Positions 10,222 through 24,284 of a stretch of DNA of 38,187 bases are shown here, one piece after another. The stretch is from Candidatus Colwelliibacteriota bacterium. Lineage in GTDB: Bacteria; Patescibacteriota; Minisyncoccia; UBA6257; Colwellbacteraceae. A model generated the notes under the pieces. That model saw only the letters and a program-made list of their open reading frames with translations, was not told where the DNA came from and did no database searches. Where the stretch lies: positions 1 to 38,187 of the forward strand of contig DAIDMW010000005.1 of the NCBI GenBank assembly GCA_027448785.1, read 5' to 3'. Position numbers and translations under genes: made by a program. Every line of letters starts with the position of its first letter. The stretch's first letter is position 1.

Positions 10222-10294
10222 AAAACTTCGTTCTAGGTGGCGAAGCAATAACTAGTTGTCCGTTAATTTAACCGCAGTATATTTAATTAAATTA

Positions 10295-10754
10295 TTACTT
10301 CACAAACCCCAAATACTTGTCCCAGAACTTTTTTTAAGCCGCCAATACTTATTAGCTTCTCCATTTACAGACGAATCGGAAAATTCACTTAGAGCCCGCG
10401 CTACCTTTAAATTGAGGTCTGGTTTTATAGGAGGAAGCTTGGACTTGGTAGCGACAAACTTTCCATTTTTTCTCCTAACCTTAACCACCACAGATCTCTC
10501 TCGATAATCCGGGCTTGAAATAGTTATACCTGTTGGAAATTTTTTACATCTCCTAGATAAGCGTTAAAGTATAATGCTCCGCATATATTGGTGAAGTCCT
10601 TCCGAGTTAACTTATCCCTTTTGAAATCTCTGACTGACTTCTTGTAGAAGATACCGGTTATCTGCTTAACGGTCGGCTTTTTGCGATCATTAAACCACAA
10701 CTTAACTAACGAAAGGGTAGAATATTTTTCCATCAACTTTCTAAATTCACTCAT
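10295..10754 (-). pseudogene. Frameshifted paralogue of the 122-aa protein at 21650-22018
   Basis: Two reading frames carry one protein. From ATG 10754 the first frame reads MSEFRKLMEKYS and includes GIFYKKSVRDFKRDKLTRKD and CGALYFNAYLGD, matching the intact copy (DIFYKAARDF, CDILYFDTYL), then stops at 10524. The next frame carries LSEFSDSSVNGEANKYWRLKK, matching MLKFSDPYGEEADDKWRLKE. A further -1 shift in a run of seven A (10329-10335) restores the family's C-terminus KFWDKYLGFVK. The first break lies near a run of six A (10540-10545). The region also has about 25-35 residues not in the intact copy. It could be a decayed gene, or one with programmed frameshifts or sequencing errors; decay is simplest. 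No function is known. Confidence 0.75.
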
Positions 10755-10770
10755 ATAAATAAACCACCAT

Positions 10771-10795
10771 GGATTAAGGAGGGACGTCCTTAACC
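10771..10795. other. Hairpin GGATTAAGGA / TCCTTAACC
   Basis: A near-palindrome just upstream of the pseudogene start and downstream of the 234-aa gene. Neither strand has a U-tract after it, so it is not a classical terminator; it could be an operator or an RNA end structure. The rest of 10755-10901 shows nothing else I can name. Confidence 0.4.
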
Positions 10796-10901
10796 AAGGT
10801 ACAAAACCCCACTTACTGTTTTGCTTCTGATCTTGTTTTTTATGGTATAGCGCCGACTCTGGAGCGTTAATGAGCTACCGCACCGATTGCAGCGTGGCGA
10901 T

Positions 10902-11606
10902 TCACCTATCGATTGACTTAACCGCGGTAACTGGGCCGCTTGAAGAAACAATAAAATCATAATCATAAAACCTGCTCCTCGATGGAATAACAATATTTTT
11001 ACGTCCGCCAAGCTCTTTGAGCGCCGCTTCGTCAATCAACTTAATCAATCCAAAGTTTTTAACCTTAGCGCGGCCGTATCGAATTCTTATATAGCCACCC
11101 ATACCCCTCAGGTAATACCCTATAGGCGTATATGTTTTTCTCTCTTTATTAGCACTATAACGAAAATGGTTGTTTCTCGCATGCAGGTTTCCCACTACCA
11201 ATAAATATTTTTCTCCTTCCCTAATGCGTTTCTTTATATTACTAGCGGTTTTAAGCTCGCCTTCATTCCATTTTTTCGCTTCATGCGTTATAGCCACAAC
11301 CTCTTTCCCCTGACTAAATAAATATTTGAACAGTTCAATATGCTCTTGCCCTATCAACCCACTGTCTGACACCCAAATTTCCTTTTTTAGTCCTTTATAC
11401 AATGGCTTTGAGTCTCCGTTTTTTAATGAACGCAGGCGTTTGTTCCAGCGCACCGGCAACTCCATGAATACCGTATCTATATCAAATTTATCAACAAAAA
11501 TTCGGATGACTTCAATATTAATTTTTGCGCCATGAACCTCCCCTAATACTATTAGGGGTTTACCGCTAAATTTATTTAATATGTTTTTCCAGGACGACAT
11601 AAACAT
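10902..11606 (-). CDS. TIKI/TraB/PrgY-superfamily-like protein, predicted metal-dependent
   Basis: A 234-residue protein with the paired GX2H signature of the TIKI/TraB/EreA-ChaN superfamily: GEVH at 22-25, an acidic FMELP at 47-51, and GNLHAR at 139-144. In TIKI proteases the two GX2H motifs and a Glu form the metal site; EreA-like members are esterases, so the exact chemistry is open. No signal peptide or membrane segment is obvious. Two ATGs (11606, 11600) can start it; neither has a Shine-Dalgarno. It begins 6 nt after the A/T tail of the terminator that ends the graspetide precursor unit, on the same strand, so readthrough could link them. A role in processing the peptide is a guess from position only. 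Confidence 0.65.
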   Translation of the reverse strand: MFMSSWKNILNKFSGKPLIVLGEVHGAKINIEVIRIFVDKFDIDTVFMELPVRWNKRLRSLKNGDSKPLYKGLKKEIWVSDSGLIGQEHIELFKYLFSQGKEVVAITHEAKKWNEGELKTASNIKKRIREGEKYLLVVGNLHARNNHFRYSANKERKTYTPIGYYLRGMGGYIRIRYGRAKVKNFGLIKLIDEAALKELGGRKNIVIPSRSRFYDYDFIVSSSGPVTAVKSIDR

Positions 11607-11611
11607 TATTT

Positions 11612-11653
11612 AAAATAAAAAGGGGCGCTGGTATAATTATACATACCAGCGCC
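11612..11653 (-). terminator. Strong terminator after the precursor peptide gene
   Basis: Stem GGCGCTGGTA (11624-11633) pairs perfectly with TACCAGCGCC (11644-11653). The loop region contains the palindrome TATAATTATA. On the minus strand the stem is followed by CCTTTTTATTTT. It lies 15 nt after the precursor stop. Confidence 0.88.
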
Positions 11654-11668
11654 GAGCTGAGTACTGCC

Positions 11669-11800
11669 TTAATCAGAGTCGTCAGGGTCGCTGCCCTTCC
11701 ACGTGGTCTTCGTAGCCGTACCGGCTGCGATGACTCGTGTCTCCTCCTCAGAAACCGGAGTTGCTATAAGCATAGCAAACACTTCTGGAACCAGATCCAC
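11669..11800 (-). CDS. Candidate graspetide precursor peptide (43 aa)
   Basis: A 43-residue peptide encoded right after the ATP-grasp ligase, 34 nt from its stop, with GTG start preceded by AAAGGGGGTGAG. Residues 1-27 look like a leader (MDLVPEVFAMLIATPV, then SEEETRVIAAG). The C-terminal 16 residues are packed with side chains used in graspetide macrocycles: Thr28, 30, 32, 33, Lys31, 35 and Ser37 as donors, then Asp38, 40, 41 and 43 as acceptors (TTWKGSDPDDSD). The segment T-W-K-G-S-D-P-D-D recalls the microviridin core T-x-K-x-P-S-D-x-E-E with one residue fewer. No PFFARFL leader motif is present. The gene is closed by its own terminator. That it is translated and modified is inference; position, ribosome binding site and composition all agree. 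Confidence 0.75.
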   Translation of the reverse strand: MDLVPEVFAMLIATPVSEEETRVIAAGTATKTTWKGSDPDDSD

Positions 11801-11834
11801 GACCTCACCCCCTTTCAAAGCCTTGTTGTTATGA

Positions 11835-12800
11835 TCACGCCCTCTTGGAGAGCAGTCTAACCATAGTTTGTAGAATAGGTTGGTGAGTCAACTCTTCTAC
11901 CCAAAGCCACTGACCGTTGGGGTTAATCTCAAGAAAAACATATTCCCCCTCTGGAGTACATATCAGGTCTATAGCACCGAAATGCAAGTCAAACTTGCGC
12001 ACGATTTCTAAACACTTGTCTTCAATGTCGCGCGGCAAAGCGTATGAAGTAACCGGCACTCTACCAAAAACCACCCCGTCTCTCCAATCAATTTTCGACG
12101 CTTCATCGCTTTGGGAATCAATCTTTGCGGAAAAGACAGCGTCGCCCACAACAGTTACCCGAACCTCGAAGGATTTTTCCACATACTCTTGGAATATTCC
12201 TCCGCTGTTACGGATAAGGTTAATGTCGTGCATCTCCTTTTGCGTCACTACAGTTGTAGGAACTCCCCAAACTGCATCACCGCTTCCAGGTTCGATGGTC
12301 GGAAACCGCAAGGTTTTATAGATCACCCTACCTTTACAAAAGCCAAAAAACCGTTCCACCTCTCTTGGAGAATTAGTGATAATCGTGCGAGGAGTTTTTA
12401 AACCAACGCTTCTAGCTAAGTTGAGTTGTAATCCTTTGTGACGAGACTGAGTTAATGCGGTAAGTTTACTAACCCAAAACGCGTCTCCCAAACCGAAATA
12501 GAGATGCTCTAGAAATTCTTTCAACTCTCGATCTGCAAACTTTCTTTGTCCAGCGTCAGCGACGTTGATCTTAATAGGTTCTGGGCGTCTATATAAGACG
12601 CTTCTAATCTCTGACAATTGAACGTCCTCTCCTTTTAAAGTAATTTTTCCACCATGCGGAGAGAAAAACGATAACTCTGCCCCATCTTCAAAGAAGTGAT
12701 CGGTGTCAAGTCGAACAATCGCTTCTCCTGCATTAATTAAAGCGCTCCCTACAACGTCACTGTGTACGTCTAAACTATTAGAGATTATCAGTACAGACAA
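11835..12800 (-). CDS. MvdD/MdnC-type ATP-grasp ligase (graspetide synthetase)
   Basis: A 321-residue ATP-grasp enzyme of the ribosomal-peptide maturase group, which uses ATP to join Ser/Thr or Lys side chains of a precursor to Asp/Glu, forming omega-ester or omega-amide rings. Group hallmarks: the pre-ATP-grasp domain (NSLDVHSDVV, RLDTDHF at 30-36, SVLYRRPEP at 67-75), the linker LTALTQSRHKGLQLNLARSV, VIYKTLR (159-165), QEYVEKSFEVRVTVVGD (204-220), KIDSQSDEASKIDWR (226-240) and EINPNGQWLWVEELT (291-305), with the Mg-ligand Glu/Asn. The TTG start at 12800 is set by AAAGGAGGAG 6-8 nt upstream. It is the first gene of a unit with the precursor at 11669-11800. Only one ligase is present, so an MdnC-like ester former is the best guess. 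Confidence 0.88.
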   Translation of the reverse strand: MSVLIISNSLDVHSDVVGSALINAGEAIVRLDTDHFFEDGAELSFFSPHGGKITLKGEDVQLSEIRSVLYRRPEPIKINVADAGQRKFADRELKEFLEHLYFGLGDAFWVSKLTALTQSRHKGLQLNLARSVGLKTPRTIITNSPREVERFFGFCKGRVIYKTLRFPTIEPGSGDAVWGVPTTVVTQKEMHDINLIRNSGGIFQEYVEKSFEVRVTVVGDAVFSAKIDSQSDEASKIDWRDGVVFGRVPVTSYALPRDIEDKCLEIVRKFDLHFGAIDLICTPEGEYVFLEINPNGQWLWVEELTHQPILQTMVRLLSKRA

Positions 12801-12850
12801 GACAGACTCCTCCTTTAGCGCAAAAGATCAGCTTAATTTGTAACCGCTTT

Positions 12851-12879
12851 AATTATTAATTATCTATTAGATAAGTCAA
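12851..12879 (-). promoter_or_regulatory. Candidate promoter of the graspetide unit
   Basis: The minus strand has TTGACT (12874-12879) and, 17-18 nt on, an A/T-rich -10 region (TTATTA, about 12851-12857). It lies between the antiporter stop and the ligase ribosome binding site, within a notably A/T-rich 97-nt gap. Confidence 0.5.
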
Positions 12880-12897
12880 TAAACTTACATAAGTAAA

Positions 12898-20774: not shown

Positions 20775-21539
20775 TCACTTTGGTTCAGAAACATAAGAAA
20801 AGGCTACTCGCGTAGCGGCTAGAGTAGATTCCCAAGCTTTTGCTTGAGGCGAGTAGAGGCTGTATCCTACCAGAACGTTTCCGCTTAGCGTCTTTCCAGA
20901 CACAAGTAAACTTATGTTTGGATTAGACACCGTGGCCACAACCTCCCCTTTTGTGACCGATTGGCCAATTTTAACCAACACGTTGAGGCTATCTCCTACA
21001 TACAGGATTATGGCACCCTCCTGACGGTTCATCAAAGACGGAGTTGGGTCGACAAAAAAGCCGGAGGACGTTCCGCTCGCGACACCCGCAGCAACAACAA
21101 CCCCATCAATTGGCGAACGGAGTTCTGTTTTTGCAGGGAGGTTAAAGATGAGGTAGAAGTTCCTCCACCAACTAGGGGTAGTCGGAGTATCGCCCGGATC
21201 TTCGTACAGCAATCCCGTCTTCCAGTATGGATTACCGAGGATTTGCTCTCCCGCTGGAGCAGTAGTGCTCGTTGGGAAAGTTTGGGTCAGCGATGGCTGG
21301 GTAGGTTGAGTCGGCTTGGTGGGAGTAGTTGGCTTAGTGGGGTGCTTGACCTGCGTGACGCGAGGCTTCGACACCGGCACCGTAACGCTGGTTGTCGGGT
21401 ATAAGAATCTGTGCCAGAACGGCTTCGTTACATAGACGACTCCAGTAACGAACGCCACAACTATCAGAATGATGGCCGCGGTGGTTCCCAAAGAAGCCGG
21501 ACGTCCTCCCATCCCGTTTCGATGCTTGATCGCGGACAT
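20775..21539 (-). CDS. Membrane-anchored protein with degenerate LytM/biotinyl-like barrel
   Basis: A 254-residue protein with one N-terminal membrane segment (about 19-38), a Pro/Thr/Lys-rich wall-spanning linker (about 52-100, repeats of PTKPT), and an external domain with FNLPAKTELRSPIDGVVV, AIILYVGDSLNVLVKIGQSVTKGEVVATV. That pattern is a LytM (M23) or biotinyl/lipoyl-type beta barrel. M23 peptidases need two His and an Asp; none of the HxH or HxxxD motifs is present, so it is probably non-catalytic and may bind glycan or scaffold. ATG at 21539 is chosen because AAAGGAGGT lies 8 nt upstream; an ORF open to 21602 has no such site. It is related in layout to the proteins at 22437 and 23067. 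Confidence 0.75.
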   Translation of the reverse strand: MSAIKHRNGMGGRPASLGTTAAIILIVVAFVTGVVYVTKPFWHRFLYPTTSVTVPVSKPRVTQVKHPTKPTTPTKPTQPTQPSLTQTFPTSTTAPAGEQILGNPYWKTGLLYEDPGDTPTTPSWWRNFYLIFNLPAKTELRSPIDGVVVAAGVASGTSSGFFVDPTPSLMNRQEGAIILYVGDSLNVLVKIGQSVTKGEVVATVSNPNISLLVSGKTLSGNVLVGYSLYSPQAKAWESTLAATRVAFSYVSEPK

Positions 21540-21649
21540 GACCGCGACCTCCTTTCCTACATTCTTTTTTTGGTTCAGGGTCTGACCTAAGCTTGACAAC
21601 AAATTCCGGTTTTGTCAAGGGCGCATATTTTATGCATGAAAAAACTCTA

Positions 21650-22018
21650 TTACTTTACAAACCCCAAATACTTGTTCCAGAATTTCTCTTTAAGGCGCCA
21701 TTTATCATCCGCCTCTTCACCGTATGGATCGGAAAATTTTAACATGGCGGTTTTTATCCTCTCGTCTAAGTCATACGTTTCCGTGCGCTCACGGCTTTGC
21801 AAATAAGTGTCAAAATATAAAATATCACAGATGCCGGAAAACTCATCAATATCTATTTTTTTATCGCGAAAATCCCTCGCCGCCTTGTAGAAAATATCGA
21901 TTATCACCTCGGAGCTGGGATATTCGTGATTATTAAGCCATTGCTCAACTAAGATCGGGTCATAATACCTGCCTAGTAAATTAATAATATTACCGCCTCT
22001 GTATATTATTTTGGTCAT
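21650..22018 (-). CDS. Hypothetical protein, intact paralogue of the 10295-10754 pseudogene
   Basis: A 122-residue soluble protein, charged and mostly helical, with no family I can name. Characteristic stretches are VEQWLNNHEYPSSEVIIDIF, ARDFRDKKIDIDEFSGICDI, LKFSDPYGEEADDKWRLKEK and the end FWNKYLGFVK. The same blocks occur in the frameshifted copy 11 kb away, and 19 bases at the 3' ends are identical (21657-21675 versus 10302-10320), so the family has more than one member in this genome. DEFSGICDILYFDTYL suggests a helical effector or inhibitor, but nothing decides this. The ATG at 22018 has no Shine-Dalgarno. Confidence 0.75.
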   Translation of the reverse strand: MTKIIYRGGNIINLLGRYYDPILVEQWLNNHEYPSSEVIIDIFYKAARDFRDKKIDIDEFSGICDILYFDTYLQSRERTETYDLDERIKTAMLKFSDPYGEEADDKWRLKEKFWNKYLGFVK

Positions 22019-22036
22019 AATAGATTGCCGGGTAAG

Positions 22037-22331
22037 AGGGGTGGCAGCCCGACTCTTACTTACTTCTTGGGTTCGACGATCTTCTTAGGTTCGCCGTCCC
22101 TGCCGTGGATCGTTGTATGCAAACGACTCGTCTCGCCGCTCGGGCTTTCATCCCAGCTCGTATGAGCTCCGTCAACATGAGCTGTGACGTGCCTTCCGCC
22201 GTCAGGCTGGTCCACGCTTGTGGTCTTAACAAGCTCTGGACCCTCGCCGCTTTCTTTTGGTCCACTCTTACCAAAGAGCAAATCCCAGAGTCCCACCAAA
22301 AATTCCTCCTTTAAGTCAAACTGCCACCCCT
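22037..22331. repeat. 11-bp inverted repeats flanking a small gene
   Basis: AGGGGTGGCAG at 22037-22047 and its exact reverse complement CTGCCACCCCT at 22321-22331 bracket the 79-aa gene. The left copy also lies inside a local hairpin (GTAAGAG ... CTCTTAC, about 22032-22057). This could be a cassette boundary or a long-range RNA stem; chance cannot be excluded. Confidence 0.4.
22060..22299 (-). CDS. Small hydrophilic hypothetical protein
   Basis: A 79-residue protein beginning with a short hydrophobic piece (VGLWDLLFG) and then very hydrophilic, rich in His, Gly, Asp, Glu, Ser and Thr (GGRHVTAHVDGAHTSWDESP, LHTTIHGRDGEPKK). The start is TTG at 22299 (or the next codon, GTG), set by AAAGGAGG 6-7 nt upstream. 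A 72-aa frame in the other register (22056-22274) lacks a ribosome binding site. No family recognised; the strong site and low complexity suggest a highly expressed small protein. It is bracketed by inverted 11-mers. Confidence 0.65.
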   Translation of the reverse strand: MVGLWDLLFGKSGPKESGEGPELVKTTSVDQPDGGRHVTAHVDGAHTSWDESPSGETSRLHTTIHGRDGEPKKIVEPKK

Positions 22332-22436
22332 ATATTTAGTCAAATTTAAAACCAGCCCAATGTCAATTACAAAAATCTGCACGCTTCTTACGAATATGCG
22401 GAAAACCTACCGGCTCTAAGTTCCGGCGTGGCGGCG

Positions 22437-23063
22437 TTATAAATTGGAGAAATATTGTCTAGCTAAAGACAAACTAAACAAGAAAGTTTTTTGCTGCGGA
22501 TTATAAGTATTAAACGATACTATAAAATTATAGTTTCCTAACGGCTTCATAATCTGCGATCCAACAGTTCCTAACACTTCTCCGCGTTGTACATCTGTGT
22601 CTGGCCCTGGAGTAAAAGCAGCGTAAGCGGTAAACCACGGCGTTGAAGTGGTCGGGTGTTGAGTTTCTAGGTATTGTGGATATAACGTTCCGCTCTGGTA
22701 CTTTATCCCGCCTATGGTAACGCTCCCTAAATCTCCCGACGTTCTAAAAACTCCGGAAAAAGGGGCATAAATTTTAGCGGTCGACGGGAGATTAAAGGCT
22801 ACAAATTGATCGCCGTACTTGTCGCTTATTAACTTGCCTTGATCGCAGTACTGCTCGTCCAGAATAACGCAGGTGCTTAACCCGGGGGCGGTTCCAACCG
22901 ATGTCGCTGTAGTTGTAGCTTGGGTTTCGACAGCTGGCGGAGTACTGGTGGAAACCGTCGGAGCCTTAACTCTGTTAGCCCAAATGCTGTATCCGACCGC
23001 CCCGGCGACGATAATTATGAAGACTATGAGAAGGATTGCGACGCGTGCTTGTTTTTTTGGCAT
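22437..23063 (-). CDS. Membrane-anchored LytM-like protein, paralogue 2
   Basis: A 208-residue protein: basic N-terminus, one membrane segment (about 7-29), a Thr/Ser/Ala-rich linker (34-62), then an external domain with CVILDEQYCDQGKLI (66-80), FNLPSTAKIYAPFSGVFRTSG, VQRGEVLGTVGSQIMKPLGNYNFIVSFN. The last part matches the shape of the M23 C-terminal strand, but the catalytic His residues are missing. The CxxxxxxYCDQG motif is shared with the next gene upstream, so these two form a tight pair; the Cys may form a disulphide. It starts 3 nt after that gene's stop (operon). The stretch 22300-22436 downstream shows only the ribosome binding site region of the 79-aa gene. Confidence 0.75.
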   Translation of the reverse strand: MPKKQARVAILLIVFIIIVAGAVGYSIWANRVKAPTVSTSTPPAVETQATTTATSVGTAPGLSTCVILDEQYCDQGKLISDKYGDQFVAFNLPSTAKIYAPFSGVFRTSGDLGSVTIGGIKYQSGTLYPQYLETQHPTTSTPWFTAYAAFTPGPDTDVQRGEVLGTVGSQIMKPLGNYNFIVSFNTYNPQQKTFLFSLSLARQYFSNL

Positions 23064-23066
23064 AAG

Positions 23067-23636
23067 TTATTTCTGTGTCTTAAAATAGCTGTTCAAAATA
23101 TTCTGATCGATGACCCCCAGCCCTTCGGCATTAACGTCCTGGAAGTTTATCAAAAGGCTGGAATTACTGACCTGATCGATGATGTAGCCATCCGATTCGG
23201 CGACCGGCTGGCCGGCGCCAACCTCGCTTCCCAATTTTACCAAAGGTTTAAACTCCCCCATAAAGTAAAACAGAGTTGCCGTTGAATTCGAATTATAATT
23301 ACCCATAACCGAACCGTAGATATTTAGGGCTGAATTACTCTTCGCCACACCGCTGGCGCTGAACTTTCCGGCAAATGGAGCGTAAATTATCGTGCTACTC
23401 GGGACATTAAAGCCGAGGTAGGTCTGGTTATCGGGATAAGTCACCGGCTGGCCTTGATCGCAATACTTGGCCGGCAGAACCGCACATGGGCCGGGGCGAT
23501 TGAACGAAAACATATAGCCGGGGAAGTTGTCGTGGAGGATATAAACGTAAGCCAGCGCGCCGGCGATAATCAAAGCCGAAACGATTAATACGATTACTAG
23601 CGTTGGGTCGTTTTTAACCTGCGTCTCTGGCGGCAT
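23067..23636 (-). CDS. Membrane-anchored LytM-like protein, paralogue 1
   Basis: A 189-residue protein with one membrane segment (about 12-35), then CAVLPAKYCDQGQPV, FNVPSSTIIYAPFAGKFSASG, GEFKPLVKLGSEVGAGQPVAESDG and a C-terminal strand region SLLINFQDV. It is laid out like the protein at 22437, with which it shares the Cys-(x)6-YCDQG motif and the FN-(L/V)-PS-(S/T)-x-x-IYAPF block. No metal-binding His motif is seen, so peptidase activity is unlikely. First gene of a two-gene unit. A TATACT lies 14 nt before the ATG. Confidence 0.75.
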   Translation of the reverse strand: MPPETQVKNDPTLVIVLIVSALIIAGALAYVYILHDNFPGYMFSFNRPGPCAVLPAKYCDQGQPVTYPDNQTYLGFNVPSSTIIYAPFAGKFSASGVAKSNSALNIYGSVMGNYNSNSTATLFYFMGEFKPLVKLGSEVGAGQPVAESDGYIIDQVSNSSLLINFQDVNAEGLGVIDQNILNSYFKTQK

Positions 23637-23713: not shown

Positions 23714-24268
23714 TTAACGCTGTCTCGATTTCCGCGAAAGCTCTTTCTTCTTTAACCCTTCTTCAAATTCCTTTGCGCTATCGATAAAATCCTTTAACGG
23801 TGGTAAATTATATTTGCTTCTCAGCGCATCCACTCCTCGCCTATTTTTTACCTGACGCACCTTTAATTCACCTTTCTTATTAAATTTAAACTGGGTCCCA
23901 AATTTTTGCGGTTTCCCTTGGGCAATCAGTAATCTATCCATAAGGTAGGCGATGTGAGCTTTATTTATCTCTCCGGGATTACTCTTATTTATTTTAATCA
24001 ACATTCCCCTAGCCTTGCGCTGGAAAGCTCTGTCGTTGTTCGAGTGCTGGGCGATAAGCCAAGCGTTGTAGCTGGCTTTCTTGCCGACCAACGATACCGT
24101 AGGCCACCCGTGCTCTTCTACTATATTCTTTAATTCCTTGGTATTTTCATCGGTGATTTTTAGATACGCTGCCTCATCCGCACCGTCAACTTTGTCCCAC
24201 AAAAGTTTTTGAAAACTTAGGTCCCGCCTAGCCATCAAATTTATCTTTCTTGCTAAAACGGGGTTCAT
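23714..24268 (-). CDS. DUF6624-like protein
   Basis: A protein of 184 residues from the ATG at 24268 (186 from a TTG at 24274). The block VEEHGWPTVSLVGKKASYNAWLIAQHSNNDRAFQ, then AHIAYLMDRLLIAQGKPQKFGTQF, is the signature I associate with DUF6624 (conserved HGWPT, AWLIxQHxxxDxxFQ, YLxDRxLxxxGKPQxYGTQ). The family's biochemical role is not known to me; it is cytoplasmic by sequence. The C-terminus is basic (ELSRKSRQR). It starts 16 nt after the Mur ligase stop, so it probably ends the ruvA-mur unit. Confidence 0.8.
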   Translation of the reverse strand: MNPVLARKINLMARRDLSFQKLLWDKVDGADEAAYLKITDENTKELKNIVEEHGWPTVSLVGKKASYNAWLIAQHSNNDRAFQRKARGMLIKINKSNPGEINKAHIAYLMDRLLIAQGKPQKFGTQFKFNKKGELKVRQVKNRRGVDALRSKYNLPPLKDFIDSAKEFEEGLKKKELSRKSRQR

Positions 24269-24284
24269 ATTCAAAAAATAAAGT

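Follow-up and report, generated by a model that had tools for sequence, protein, structure and literature searches.

Bacteria of the CPR are gene-poor, and most of them live on other cells. Makarova et al. 2022 (PMC8939145) reported graspetide loci from such bacteria, using a genome set that dates from March 2016: the text of that study divides CPR graspetides into two branches, gives the core signature TxxxTx(6-10)Dx(1-4)D, records Tiki/TraB proteins near some of the loci, and names host interaction and superinfection exclusion as possible roles. A 2026 RODEO survey (PMC13097080) delineates, in its section on them, two graspetide groups (27 and 42) in which candidate phyla are represented by many members; group 27 consists of the synthetase and precursor only, and group 42 often includes DUF6624, a recurrent graspetide partner. 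Since the idea of a CPR graspetide is already set out in these two publications, with CPR loci in the former and candidate-phyla groups in the latter, the locus analysed here is less novel than a preliminary description of this DNA had implied. What is added here are the particular precursor, exact linkage counts, an exchange signal and the tight link to a third gene.

The locus lies in the window, by which we mean the whole 38,187-nucleotide stretch of a Candidatus Colwelliibacteriota contig that was analysed; the source genome comprises 597 kb in 47 contigs and is estimated to be 100% complete. Its size, together with relatives named as Patescibacteria or Wolfebacteria, is the basis for assigning it to the CPR, and the bacterium is probably dependent on a host. 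The earlier claim of a graspetide ligase and precursor in a small CPR-type genome stands. The genes form a block (10222-12897) flanked by a kefC-like antiporter gene on one side and a uracil-DNA glycosylase-type gene on the other, and it is highly probable that this block makes a graspetide, using a ligase, a precursor composed of a leader and a core, and a dedicated hydrolase-fold partner.

The ligase gene (11835-12800, minus strand) encodes 321 amino acids from a TTG start with AAAGGAGG upstream, and its frame, read from 12800 to 11835, has no internal stops. All three motifs quoted for an MvdD/MdnC-type ligase in the preliminary description (SVLYRRPEP, EVRVTVVGD and EINPNGQWLWVEE) are present. 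The protein matches the NCBIfam profiles GRASP_SAV_5884 (2.5e-65), MvdD (1.2e-59) and MvdC (2.8e-54), with all three scores below the curated cut-offs, and it exceeds the cut-off of the Pfam MvdD pre-ATP-grasp family (PF21068). Its relatives in the PDB are 5ig9 (1.7e-40) and CdnC (7mgv, 1.3e-35), together with 5ig8 and AMdnB (7m4s). Judged by these profiles, the ligase is a member of the peptide-maturase family, as opposed to a non-peptide ATP-grasp enzyme, and its sub-threshold scores against the named NCBIfam families mean that it is not an orthologue of either MvdD or MvdC. Across 16 aligned CPR ligases K162, E212, R214, D238/R240, D278 and N293 are invariant and E291 is nearly so; the E-x-R and D-W-R motifs and the ATP-site lysine are thus kept in 16 of 16. 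From established knowledge of ATP-grasp enzymes we take these invariant residues to be those that bind ATP and Mg. A literature search for the DxR motif turned up no paper.

The source genome carries a single graspetide ligase. Only 22 of the 244 genomes of the order have one, and the system is therefore dispensable. The ligase tree groups the window in a clade of seven rows (SH-aLRT 94) with six relatives that likewise have the precursor downstream; CPR ligases overall are dispersed among other phyla, with weak support at depth. The end of one related locus (L016, 10634-10867) also carries a piece of another ATP-grasp ligase, a distant one with 28% identity.

Directly behind the ligase is the precursor gene (11669-11800, minus strand), a 43-codon ORF with its own ribosome-binding site (AAAGGGGGTGAG), a GTG start at 11800 and a stop at 11669, encoding MDLVPEVFAMLIATPVSEEETRVIAAGTATKTTWKGSDPDDSD; the program-made ORF list starts it further out, at a TTG at 11818 (49 aa). 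In the sister genome (G001, locus L015) this ORF is identical at 150 of 150 nucleotides, against 28 differences over the 966 positions of the ligase. The ORF is also conserved beside homologous ligases: in G209 (L016), with a ligase 53% identical, and in G204 (L119), with one 50% identical, precursors MEKEQIIEVFALLVAKEDPQDLSPKDVHGSYSKSTYKGTDRDDSD and MDPAQVFAALIATPPLDQCPLGGKATLTTWKGTDPDD, respectively, occupy the same position and have the same leader and core layout. The precursors of L018, L019 and L017 are shorter, start with E-[V/I/T]-F-A and end in D-D. The predicted leader (11720-11800, minus strand) contains the putative helix PEVFAMLIA, whose pattern [E/Q][V/I]FAxxxA is common to the precursors of L016, L119, L018 and L019; its agreement with the Phhx(1,2)h motif from the literature is no more than loose, PEVF having Glu at the first hydrophobic position. 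The predicted core, T28-D43 (11672-11719, minus strand), would begin after Ala-Gly; both this cleavage site and the ring pattern are our predictions. Candidate donors are T30, T32 and T33, and candidate acceptors D38, D40 and D41; the three nearest precursors keep T/S30, T/S32, T33, D38, D40 and D41. Residues T28, T32, D40 and D43 match the CPR branch-1 signature TxxxTx(6-10)Dx(1-4)D.

To put numbers on the association, precursor-like ORFs were counted with criteria fixed for all regions (a ribosome-binding site, 30-75 aa, an acidic end and Ser/Thr richness). Their density was 0.60/kb within 450 bases of CPR ligases; on the same strand at greater distances it was 0.10/kb, and on the opposite strand 0.011/kb, which makes them about 57 times denser beside CPR ligases, a ratio that serves as a guide and not as a test because the criteria were picked after examples had been seen. 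Such an ORF is present at 17 of 33 CPR ligase loci, two of these loci being the same sequence. Taken together, the sequence comparisons indicate that the 43-codon precursor gene is real. Its conservation in position and layout and its enrichment beside ligases also argue against a reading in which the ligase is a RimK-like enzyme that adds amino acids to another protein and the small ORF is spurious. The similarity behind that reading is weak (TIGR00768 2.7e-13; Pfam RimK 1.8e-4) and the peptide-maturase models score far better (2.5e-65); we rejected a RimK-type identity on these much weaker scores and hold the reading as a whole to be very improbable. Elsewhere, locus L117 (G075; 275-663 in reverse-strand coordinates) has two tandem precursor-like ORFs, with PFLLGF and PFTLSL leaders, beside one ligase.

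The gap between the precursor and the third gene contains an intrinsic-terminator hairpin (11624-11653, minus strand) with a 12-bp stem followed by the T-rich CCTTTTTATTTT. Its folding energy of -23.4 kcal/mol (z = -4.5) bears out the strong terminator noted earlier. A hairpin separates the precursor from the third gene in the window and in L016, L119, L018 and L019, and one also follows the precursor in L013 and L017; the hairpin sequences of these six other loci differ. The candidate promoter placed in front of the ligase fared less evenly: a site TTGACT-16-AATAAT with 10 of 12 consensus matches is present (12852-12879, minus strand) and is nearly unchanged in the sister genome, but with 3 such sites found against 3.8 expected from shuffles, promoter-like sites here are not above chance.

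The unit had been described as self-contained with two genes. This view needs correction, since a third, ligase-linked gene follows the terminator at 10902-11606 (minus strand) and encodes 234 amino acids. A single-sequence Pfam search and a PDB sequence search with this protein gave nothing significant, so it could be placed only through its homologues and a fold search. The alignments contain two GX2H motifs, G22-E-V-H25 (GEVHG) and G139-N-L-H142 (GNLHA); the AlphaFold model has a pLDDT of 91.8, and Foldseek matched it to EreC (2.2e-6), related Bacillus proteins and ChaN (8.1e-4). Among the seven family members, three match Pfam ChaN, of the Tiki superfamily (best 3.4e-7), and two weakly match the Pfam erythromycin esterase family (0.013). 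Both the motifs and the modelled fold are those of the EreA/ChaN/Tiki superfamily, and on this basis the third protein is predicted to have this fold and a hydrolase-like activity.

The linkage of this gene to the ligase is tight. It occurs in 7 of the 244 genomes of the order, in all seven directly downstream of a ligase or precursor: homologues follow the precursor in L016, L018, L019 and L119, the L013 homologue follows the ligase, with the precursor upstream, and the G001 copy is split by a contig end. Co-occurrence of the third gene and the ligase alone gives a hypergeometric p of 1.8e-8, a value that overstates independence, as the genomes are related. In a class-wide draw G403 again shows a precursor-ligase-hydrolase arrangement; three weaker matches came from G335 (a divergent protein next to a ligase), G284 (at a contig edge) and G424 (a genome without a ligase). 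An apparently different downstream ORF in the sister locus L015 was dismissed: it falls inside an extra stretch of about 160 bases, after which the third gene follows at the contig end. This stretch (L015 6180-6340), between the terminator and the third gene, contains a palindrome, GCGGGCGTAAGCCCG, of which G001 has three copies and G000 one; it is perhaps a small repeat element.

Each lactone or lactam ring of a graspetide lowers the mass by 18 Da. As in characterised graspetides, the PEVFAMLIA leader helix of the 43-residue precursor would bind and activate the ligase, which would spend ATP on activating the side chains of Asp residues in the C-terminal core TATKTTWKGSDPDDSD. The activated Asp residues would then be linked to the hydroxyl groups of Thr/Ser, a Lys being a less likely partner, and the product would have up to three lactone (or lactam) rings (-54 Da). 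The hairpin behind the precursor probably lifts precursor output relative to that of the third gene. The third protein most likely acts on the peptide, either as a protease that removes the leader or as a hydrolase that opens esters for self-protection.

Many graspetides, to our knowledge, lack a known leader protease. A search of the source genome found no C39 leader peptidase, so the leader would either be taken off by another route or retained. For its removal the third protein is the best candidate: a Tiki-like hydrolase could cut after Ala-Gly, before the core, and free the ringed peptide. The two GX2H motifs with their conserved E/H residues and the Pfam matches to the ChaN/Tiki superfamily are consistent with this role, and leader cleavage or further maturation is what the text of Makarova et al. 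(PMC8939145) proposes for the Tiki/TraB proteins of CPR loci. However, the solved fold with the best E-value, EreC, is that of an esterase, the gene sits behind the terminator, and most CPR graspetide loci lack a third gene (15 of the 22 ligase genomes of the order); we hold leader cleavage to be a serious possibility just short of an even chance. Ring opening is a real alternative, because the protein is closest, among solved folds, to a macrolactone esterase and a macrolactone is also the expected product. EreC hydrolyses a macrolactone, and the third protein could likewise open ester rings inside the producer, for self-protection or turnover; a weakly expressed position behind a terminator might suit such a safety enzyme. 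Here the sequence matches point the other way, favouring ChaN/Tiki over Ere (3.4e-7 versus 0.013), and the breadth of the fold family leaves the substrate unfixed; we give ring opening a minority chance. A hydrolase-fold gene so strictly linked to the ligase provides a concrete candidate for a leader protease.

The flanks of the block speak to its origin. In four ligase-free relatives (G002, G004, G005 and G006) the antiporter gene directly adjoins the uracil-DNA glycosylase-type gene in convergent orientation, and the block has a GC content of 0.39-0.44 (0.54 for the precursor) versus 0.50 for the window. In the sister genome G001 the same locus has the same upstream neighbours. Synonymous divergence of the window from G001 reaches 0.29 in the antiporter and 0.24 in most of the third gene, compared to 0.07 in the ligase (p = 2.8e-8 against the antiporter; p = 8e-4 against the third gene) and zero in the precursor. 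The antiporter stop marks where the drop sets in, and the low stretch corresponds to window 11624-12897. Since the block is inserted between otherwise neighbouring genes, is AT-rich and has anomalously low ligase-precursor divergence, it looks acquired and mobile. The simplest reading of the low divergence would be a recent exchange of the ligase-precursor part, to which unusual synonymous constraint is the alternative. Low GC, together with the absence of the block from three other same-genus genomes, could also point to contamination or a decaying remnant and not a functional locus of the source genome. That explanation is scarcely credible: core genes flank the block on one contig, G001 has the same locus and upstream neighbours, and dN/dS relative to the sister genome is about 0.23 for both the ligase and the third gene, indicating purifying selection. 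At the block edge, two short ORFs (10300-10754, minus strand) appear to be fragments of a disrupted paralogue of 21650-22018, with 38% identity across 63 residues.

Elsewhere in the window, a DUF6624 protein is encoded at 23714-24274 (minus strand; Pfam 2.4e-19), with a second copy on contig C11. The family adjoins graspetide ligases in several related genomes, and in G071 a member (52% identical) lies beside a ligase-precursor-hydrolase block; ligases are enriched in genomes with DUF6624 (9 of 17 versus 22 of 244, p = 1.1e-6). The copy at 23714 was considered as a partner acting in trans and left out of the parts of the system, lying about 11 kb from the block here. Near it, at 20775-23636 (minus strand), three small membrane-anchored proteins are encoded in a row, two with weak similarity to M23 peptidases.

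Protease inhibition or action on the host, as suggested earlier for the product, is unsupported: the data hold nothing for or against it, and microviridin signatures are absent. Encoded in fewer than 10% of the order's genomes, apparently gained as a block and under purifying selection, the product is a candidate that can be tested for effects on hosts or rivals. In a broader scenario, which we consider unlikely as a whole, the locus would represent a CPR-specific graspetide subclass with an [E/Q][V/I]FA leader and a TTWKG[ST]DPDD core (the latter in the window and G204), whose Ere/Tiki-fold partner matures the peptide or opens ester rings as immunity, the module passing between related bacteria that depend on hosts, with the exclusion of rival episymbionts as one example of its use. 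With so short and well-defined a precursor, a test of the chemistry in E. coli does not require the organism to be cultured.

Collectively, the locus resembles the CPR loci of ATP-grasp branches 1 and 2 described in PMC8939145 in its CPR host, its single MvdD/MdnC-type ligase and its short adjacent precursor; the core signature fits, and a Tiki/TraB protein lies near some of the loci there. Unlike those loci as that text presents them, its leader is P-E-[V/I]-F-A and not Phh, and the order ligase-precursor-hairpin-hydrolase has no description in that text. It shares with group 42 of PMC13097080 the presence of the DUF6624 family in the source genome and differs from groups 27 and 42 in its Tiki/Ere-like partner, none being mentioned in the survey section on these groups. 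The ligase fold and catalytic motifs are like those of the microviridin enzymes (MvdC/MvdD, MdnB/MdnC), whereas the genome has one ligase and not two (for lactone and lactam); membership of the microviridins was rejected, as the precursor has neither the PFFARFL leader nor the TxKxPSDx(D/E)(D/E) core. The third protein has the fold and the GExH and GNxH motifs of the EreA/ChaN/Tiki (TraB) superfamily and, unlike that superfamily at large, belongs to a compact 234-aa branch tied to graspetide ligases.
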